Positions 52,811 to 53,636 of a DNA stretch of 64,000 nt are shown piece after piece (position 1 is the first letter of the stretch; the number at the start of each line of letters is the position of its first letter). Position numbers and translations under genes: made by a program. Under the pieces are notes generated by a model. The model was given only the letters and a program-made list of their open reading frames with translations, had not been told where the DNA came from and searched no databases. The DNA is from Sphingobacteriales bacterium (GTDB lineage: Bacteria > Bacteroidota > Bacteroidia > Chitinophagales > CAIOSU01). The stretch lies in contig JAIXUD010000022.1 of NCBI GenBank assembly GCA_027483645.1, positions 310,001-374,000 of the forward strand, written 5' to 3'.

Positions 52811-53178
52811 GGGGCTGTATGGATTTGACAGCGGGACTTGTAGTTATACTGGCATGCCGAGAGAGGTGTGTTGACTCGTAAATCCCGGCACACAAACACT
52901 TTTATACGGCGAGAACAACTACGCCATGGCCGCCTAATTCTAGGAATTAGATAGCCTTTGTCCCGGGTAGACTTGGCACGTTCAGTACGCCATTGGGGCA
53001 TCGAGAAGATCGTGCTGGCTGCTGCGCCTCACCTGACGCAGCAGTAAGATAAAAGGTGTAAGGAAGCAATTGGTGGGTTACCTGACCGGCTGCTCTCCCC
53101 ACAATTAACAGGCAACTAAGCGTGTAGAAGGTATAGCCGCAACTTGACTGGACGAGGGTTCGAAACCCTCCAGCTCCA
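52811..53178 (+). ncRNA. ssrA: tmRNA (ssrA), tag GENNYAMAA
   Basis: The 5' end GGGGCTGTATGGATTTGACAG and the 3' end GGGTTCGAAACCCTCCAGCTCCA form the tRNA-like domain; GGGGCTG pairs with CAGCTCC and the T arm is intact. The tag reading frame is GGC-GAG-AAC-AAC-TAC-GCC-ATG-GCC-GCC-TAA at 52908-52937, encoding GENNYAMAA. It rescues stalled ribosomes and tags the product for ClpXP-type proteolysis. CCA is not encoded (the genome has ACT), so it must be added. Pseudoknots are expected in 52940-53130 but were not drawn in detail. Confidence 0.95.
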
Positions 53179-53182
53179 CTTT

Positions 53183-53227
53183 GGTTATTGGTTGATTGGT
53201 TAATTAGTTAATCGGTTGATTAGTAGC
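53183..53227. repeat. Intergenic repeats, TTATTGGTTGATTGGTTA family, downstream of tmRNA
   Basis: GGTTATTGGTTGATTGGTTA and AATTAGTTAATCGGTTGATT in degenerate 8-base units immediately after the mature tmRNA. A second copy occurs in the duplicated tail at 53370-53406. Confidence 0.6.
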
Positions 53228-53242
53228 CCGTAAGAACGTTTT

Positions 53243-53280
53243 AAACCCTGCTTCAGTAATGAGGCAGGGTTTTTTGTTTT
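53243..53280 (+). terminator. tmRNA terminator
   Basis: AACCCTGC / GCAGGGTT stem with a TTCAGTAATGAG loop, followed by TTTTTGTTTT. Confidence 0.8.
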
Positions 53281-53283
53281 ATC

Positions 53284-53463
53284 CCACAGCCACAACTTGA
53301 CTTGACGCGGGTTCGAACGGCGCAGCCCTCGGGCGCTTTTCGCGCCCAACCCCTCCAGCTCCACCCATTTTAGTTACTAGTTAATTGGTTATTGGCTGAT
53401 TAGTAACTTGTAGAACGTTTTTTAGAAACCCTGCTTCAGAGATGAGGTAAGGTTTTTTGTTTT
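53284..53463 (+). pseudogene. Degenerate tandem copy of the tmRNA 3' end and terminator
   Basis: About 150 bp resembling 53132-53280: CCACAACTTGACTTGACGC GGGTTCGAA matches the tmRNA T-arm region, CCCTCCAGCTCCAC repeats the acceptor strand, and AACCCTGCTTCAGAGATGAGG repeats the terminator. Differences: an insertion of about 30 bp inside the T arm (53319-53348), containing GGGCGC-TTTTC-GCGCCC (53331-53347), and two changes that weaken the terminator stem (GCAGGG to GTAAGG). The 5' part of tmRNA is not present. It could be a tandem duplication, or the scar of an integrated element using the tmRNA 3' end as attachment site. Confidence 0.75.
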
Positions 53464-53636
53464 AACATACTTCTCATCCCAAGTTTTAAGAGCCTGTCCT
53501 GACGAATGGAAGGGAGGGACATTCTCGCATTAATCAATTTTTACTCCCCAACCCCACACATTTCCCTTTCCCACATAAATAATTAAAAATTTCAAAAGTA
53601 CCCGTACCTTTACGCTACTAACCAAAACCACCACCT

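Follow-up and report, generated by a model that had tools for sequence, protein, structure and literature searches.

The window, a 64,000-nt stretch of contig JAIXUD010000022.1 from a Sphingobacteriales bacterium, contains an intact tmRNA gene (ssrA) on the forward strand at 52811–53179. ARAGORN made a single tmRNA call in the window, at these coordinates and with the tag GENNYAMAA, and the Rfam tmRNA model matched 52811–53181 with 124 bits. Downstream of the gene, the last ∼45 nt of the tmRNA, its tail and its terminator reappear at 53288–53464, split in the T loop by 32 nt. A preliminary description had read the region as an intact tmRNA gene followed by a recurring tail and terminator. This reading is borne out by direct repeats that occur in the same order (53135–53164/53288–53317 with 90% identity, 53163–53179/53348–53364 with 94% and, for the terminator, 53243–53281/53426–53464 with 90%) and by a gapped local alignment of 53135–53284 with 53284–53480, which scored 158.5, against a maximum of 42 when the second stretch was shuffled 500 times by single bases.

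All parts of the repeated region are on the forward strand. The proximal terminator (53243–53272) is formed by arms 53243–53255 and 53260–53272, which are 92% complementary. It is followed by a truncated copy of the 3′ part of the tmRNA (53288–53317), which ends at GGTTCGAA. The tail is thus repeated as had been described, but not the tail only, because the copy also takes in 30 nt upstream of the end of the T loop. The T-loop insert (53318–53349) starts directly 3′ of GGGTTCGAA in the second copy and consists of CGGCGCAGCCCTC (with GGC-GCA-GCC), the stem GGGCGC/GCGCCC and a final AA; its match to the covariance model described below (model R1) is weak (17.9 bits, E 0.12). The stem had been noted correctly, within an insertion given as 30 rather than 32 nt. 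The remaining part (53350–53464) comprises a displaced 3′ end, its tail and a terminator which, as previously stated, is weakened, with two changes in its stem; under the model favored below this would be the original 3′ end of the gene. The TTATTGGTTGATT-type repeats that had been listed among the recurring elements are present in both tails but have no specificity for them: the second copy has 52 matches in the genome, and 44 of these are confined to these AT-rich repeats. AT-rich TTGGTTATT-type repeats of the tail (53365–53422, corresponding to query positions 86–143, and also 53181–53221) are dispersed in the genome. Under the same model, the inserted element would span 185 bp (53165–53349), with boundaries deduced from those of the repeats and by analogy with a 397-bp T-loop difference in a tRNA-Pro gene, and would be composed of a new tmRNA 3′ end, a new tail and terminator, the truncated tmRNA copy and the T-loop insert. 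No ORF was found in this unit.

The locus was compared with other tmRNA loci with flanks of up to 1.5 kb, 30 in total from the 52 above the Rfam cut-off. A second tail was found in two of the 30, the window and the locus of the same-genus genome G002 (the genome of the window is G000, and G001–G004 belong to its genus). The second copy is thus not conserved without decay in distant relatives, as would have been expected for a functional element, and a conserved functional second tail was rejected as an explanation. In G002, one full and one truncated extra copy lie downstream of the tmRNA gene. Directly behind the truncated one, which is the third copy, 28 bp match the end of a unit at another G000 locus (L058), which suggests recombination between units. 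The distal tails are more similar than the proximal ones to the single tail of G003 (0.86 vs 0.79 for G000 and 0.91 vs 0.85 for G002), a modest difference over ∼90–116 aligned bases of repetitive sequence, and displacement of the old end would predict this order. The tmRNA tails of G001 and G004 are unlike the others. The alanine dehydrogenase side of the locus is common to the window, G001, G002 and G003; on the opposite side, no similarity was found beyond the tails in the compared stretches. Five proteins flanking the tmRNA in the window were analyzed with Pfam, and these were an alanine dehydrogenase, a polyketide cyclase/GyrI-like protein, an acyl-CoA oxidase, a tyrosyl-tRNA synthetase and one protein with no match, with no integrase among them. 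No GIY-YIG gene was found within 1.5 kb of any of the 30 tmRNA genes.

Copies of the T-loop insert are also present elsewhere in the genome and the genus. G000, G001–G004 (G004 is 78% complete) and two genomes of the same family were scanned with a 20-mer composed of GGGTTCGAA and the first bases of the insert, and three mismatches or fewer were accepted. Matches were found at seven places in G000, one in G001, seven in G002, four in G003 and none in G004 or the two same-family genomes, and the reversed 20-mer used as a control gave 0 places in all seven genomes. A tRNA or tmRNA was called in the loci of 15 of the 19 places in the genus, and no tRNA was called in the other four (L057, L058, L063 and L065). 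In G000, tRNA-Arg(acg) is followed by two partial copies in tandem; the other copies are one behind tRNA-Pro(tgg), two full-length tRNA-like genes of a tRNA array that are split in the T loop, the copy at L058 and that at the tmRNA. The two array genes (L064/L068, G000:C21:26.5–27.1k) have anticodons TTT and TAG, as read by eye, and carry the T-loop insert with no second copy. When the core of the insert was searched without GGTTCGAA, again with up to three mismatches, seven places were found in the same seven genomes: two at tRNA-Arg, two at L058, and single ones in G001, in a tmRNA-like tail of G003 (L057/L111) and, in degenerate form, behind a tRNA-Val (L101). The tmRNA-like tail copy of G003 (G003:C13:69.5k) is located on a different contig from the tmRNA gene of this genome. 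The kinship of the window insert with these copies rests on the exact common sequence GGTTCGAACGGCGCAGCCCTC, on its position, and on the tmRNA copy of G002, which shares GCTTTTCGCG.

A wider scan of species genomes with a degenerate 21-mer returned 24 stretches in 18 assemblies, and 23 of the 24 records are named as Bacteroidota groups. The 21-mer had 0 matches in the viral_contigs set, and a viral carrier of the insert was rejected on this basis. At the level of the order, with up to two mismatches, 14 of 396 genomes gave matches, four of which belong to this genus; in the other ten there was a single match per genome, always in a locus that lacks a tRNA, and these represent background because the reversed control gave a similar number (10 matches in 9 genomes). 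Among 34 insert copies, 23 have a tRNA or tmRNA on the same strand no more than 1.5 kb upstream, and in 19 the final 14 nt of that RNA recur with up to two mismatches. The first tRNA-Arg copy of L055 escaped the pattern used in this test, and several loci end too early for a tRNA to be seen. A diverged module that lacks the exact 21-mer was observed in G566 (L156, 1501–1700), in tandem and behind a tRNA whose 3′ end recurs, so scans with exact patterns undercount the family.

In nine distant copies chosen for structural analysis, the insert module can be folded into four helices with 96.7% of cells paired. The covariation score was 0.248 (the mean of shuffled alignments was 0.078, and 0 of 500 shuffles scored as high), but 63 of the 500 shuffles reached the observed number of pairs changed on both sides and 203 reached that of further pair types, so that neither was unusual in these copies. 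The comparison points to some compensatory change in the distant copies. The covariance model of the module matched 2 of 395 genomes of the phylum, one of them G000, and 4 of 7 near genomes, G000 included. Neither the insert nor the tail copy had an Rfam match above the gathering score, and a known RNA family was thereby rejected. A hammerhead-like layout (GATGAG and CGAA) in the distant copies was likewise discarded, since CGAA is T-loop sequence and Rfam returned nothing.

In sister species, some related units contain a nuclease gene. Of the 24 loci found with the 21-mer, 5 have a GIY-YIG gene next to a copy that bears the insert, four in G002 and G003 and one in a Salinivirgaceae genome (L113), and the small gene of these units belongs to PF01541 (Pfam). 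The complete unit at tRNA-Pro and tRNA-Arg in the sister species has the GIY-YIG gene located between a new terminator and a 5′-truncated tRNA copy. At tRNA-Pro, G002 holds 397 bp more than G000, placed between T-loop positions 59 and 60 (the flanks are 96% and 93% identical), and the additional sequence consists, in this order, of a new 3′ end, a new terminator, the GIY-YIG gene, a truncated copy and the insert. Beyond it, the sequence that follows position 59 in G000 resumes in G002 with 93% identity over 173 bp. The difference may represent either an insertion in G002 or a loss in G000. At tRNA-Arg, flanks that are 90% and 94% identical enclose 48 nt in G002 but 376 nt, including a GIY-YIG gene, in G003.

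The G002 protein had matches in 184 of 295 genomes of the class, including G000. From these, 47 loci were analyzed, which do not constitute a census: 29 of the best 30 (G000 was omitted) and 18 of 20 picked by hand from the hit list, with tandem arrays favored and two left out as repeats of others. In this sample of best-scoring or hand-picked loci, a tRNA lies within 200 bp of the domain in 40 of 47; it ends within 200 bp upstream on the same strand in 30, begins within 200 bp downstream in 10 more, and does neither in 7. The tRNA 3′ end is repeated in 20 of the 47 loci (up to 2 mismatches in 16). In G000, G002 and G003 together, 8 of 27 GIY-YIG matches are adjacent to a tRNA, with long UvrC-like proteins counted in. 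Tandem units include a tRNA-Pro 3′ end repeated five times at 322 bp and a tRNA-Leu 3′ end repeated four times at 345 bp. Four class-level loci (L194, L195, L196 and L198) combine tandem GIY-YIG genes with repeated tRNA 3′ ends at periods of 322–404 bp. A mirror form also exists, in which a 5′ tRNA fragment is followed by the gene and the intact tRNA; 12-mers of the tRNA recur upstream in 8 of the 10 loci with a downstream tRNA and were not found there in the other 2. Residues Y5, Y16, G18, R26 and H30 are conserved in 49 of 49 domains and E62 in 48 of 49 (the domains were chosen from tRNA-adjacent loci), and we take these six to be the GIY-YIG active-site residues. Units in relatives thus encode a GIY-YIG catalytic domain with conserved active-site residues.

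Hairpins are found in the copies of GIY-YIG units at differing places, as read by eye. The insert covariance model had no match with E ≤0.01 in 49 class-level GIY-YIG loci, so the insert and the nuclease are not generally linked; judged from the sequences, the coupling between hairpin and nuclease is only loose. Hairpins specific to the nuclease were considered and rejected, as the one common to L171 and L183 is a dispersed palindrome, which occurs five times in 2 of 295 genomes and in two of these cases is not near a tRNA. A palindrome (CGCGAGGC..GCTCGCGATGGCGAG..CTCGCC) was seen both in tRNA fragments of G895 and G889 (L214–L218) and at places without tRNAs. Two unrelated tRNA units (L174, His, and L177, Ala) have a further hairpin type (CCGAAAAATAGAAA..ATTTTTCGAG) in common, located before TTCGA.

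The second copy in the window is probably the original 3′ end of the tmRNA gene, moved downstream when a tRNA-targeting element entered the T loop and provided a replacement; the inserted unit, which has no ORF, would be a relic of that element. A small element would have entered just after GGTTCGAA, carrying its own 3′ end and terminator. Because the element supplies both, the tmRNA would stay intact, and the old 3′ end would be left downstream, marked by the stem-loop insert. The unit may have arisen with a GIY-YIG nuclease of the type found in the sister species, and the missing gene would make it a relic or a non-autonomous form. The nuclease itself would cut tRNA genes, and repair from a homologous copy would spread and amplify the unit, i.e. 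homing; cutting and repair, and also the immunity of the units, are steps that we infer. Several results weigh against this reading. None of the 30 tmRNA genes has a GIY-YIG gene close by and only two have a second tail; the insert model had no match with E ≤0.01 in the class-level nuclease loci and matched the window copy only at E 0.12; 4 of the 19 insert places in the genus are in loci where no tRNA was called; the tails were compared over short repetitive stretches; the 397-bp difference may have arisen in either direction; and one hairpin type of the tRNA fragments is a dispersed palindrome. A broader proposal, to which we give an even chance of being right, is that Bacteroidota carry a widespread and undescribed class of tiny selfish elements. 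Such an element would interrupt a tRNA or, in rare cases, a tmRNA gene, restore an intact tRNA with sequence of its own, and depend on a GIY-YIG nuclease for its spread and amplification. The T-loop stem-loop module would move between tRNA families as a non-autonomous form, and the window would be the tmRNA case. Among the matches listed in openly licensed papers, which by title mostly concerned fungal mitochondria, phages and viruses, there was no account of such units in bacterial tRNA genes.

In the main rival explanation, slippage or unequal recombination simply duplicated the tmRNA tail in tandem, the insert was acquired later by gene conversion from a tRNA locus via the common GGTTCGAA, and no nuclease acted. 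This explanation would readily account for two adjacent tails that are 90% similar and for tmRNA genes that have no GIY-YIG gene beside them, and the two full-length tRNA-like genes of the array, with the insert but no second copy, imply that the insert can arrive alone. We nevertheless consider it rather unlikely, since it leaves unexplained the T-loop-exact 397-bp difference at tRNA-Pro and the tRNA 3′ ends repeated around GIY-YIG genes, although it may still hold for the tmRNA alone. A T-arm insert common to tRNA copies is also not predicted by tandem duplication alone. The same insert in tmRNA and tRNA copies instead favors a tRNA-targeting element.

That the tail copy and its insert give rise to a functional RNA with a conserved structure is highly improbable. 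The nearly complete pairing of the distant copies and their covariation score argue for such a role, but changes on both sides of pairs and further pair types did not exceed those of the shuffles, the closing stem may simply follow the abutting tRNA arm, and the module is absent from Rfam and rare among the genomes of the phylum. The least probable explanation is an att scar, left by an island that a tyrosine integrase had placed at the tmRNA 3′ end and that was subsequently lost. In naming the scar of an excised element as one possibility, the preliminary description pointed in the right direction as far as a mobile element is concerned, but an integrase-island att scar was rejected because the five flanking proteins include no integrase and the insert is common to tRNA copies, which an att scar alone does not predict. 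Moreover, two full tails are present, whereas an excised island leaves one att copy. The explanation would agree with the different sequences downstream of the tmRNA in sister species and with the frequent use of tmRNA genes as island sites, as stated in the available part of one report (PMC11915505). An element that brought its own 3′ end into the T loop is the reading that we prefer, and it can be compared with four known systems.

Islands of tyrosine integrases are located at tmRNA and tRNA 3′ ends, and the element restores the 3′ end. The units described here would resemble them in targeting the 3′ portion of a tRNA-like gene and restoring its 3′ end, and they differ in that no integrase was found, the units are only 0.15–0.4 kb long, and the T-loop insert is conserved. 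REP-type dispersed palindromes are small stem-loops like the insert, and one palindrome of the G895 tRNA fragments also occurs elsewhere. REP sequences, however, have many copies unrelated to tRNA genes, and none of the seven places of the insert core in the seven genomes is clearly away from tRNA-like sequence.

A closer parallel is provided by the mORFs of fungal mitochondrial atp6, atp9, cox2 and nad3, in which, as far as the available text of the report goes, a nuclease ORF has inserted into an essential gene together with a substitute for its 3′ part, and the native 3′ part, which is displaced, lies downstream and is nearer to relatives than the inserted one (PMC3630166). Under our model the same would hold for the bacterial units, with the replacement upstream and the native part downstream. 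The anatomy at tRNA-Pro fits this layout, and the difference between the tails at the tmRNA is modest. In the account available for mORFs, the targets are mitochondrial protein genes and the nucleases are LAGLIDADG or, for atp9, GIY-YIG enzymes, whereas here the genes are those of bacterial tRNA and tmRNA, and the window unit has no ORF (PMC3630166). SegB of phages T4 and T6 is described in the accessible part of its report as a free-standing GIY-YIG homing endonuclease whose activity drives tandem amplification of a tRNA segment (PMC13096335). It shares with our units a GIY-YIG gene beside tRNA genes, and their tandem arrays are comparable to this amplification; it differs in being a phage system in which full tRNA genes are amplified, and that part of the report does not mention a T-loop insert or displaced tRNA 3′ ends (PMC13096335). 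If our proposal is true, the fragments of tRNA 3′ ends and the small GIY-YIG genes found next to tRNAs, in some cases as tandem arrays, belong to one mobile-element strategy of Bacteroidota, in which an essential RNA gene is invaded harmlessly by bringing a replacement part. The nuclease and its target would then be directly testable, and the logic of the fungal mitochondrial elements would reach bacterial tRNA genes, with a tie to the tRNA amplification of SegB.
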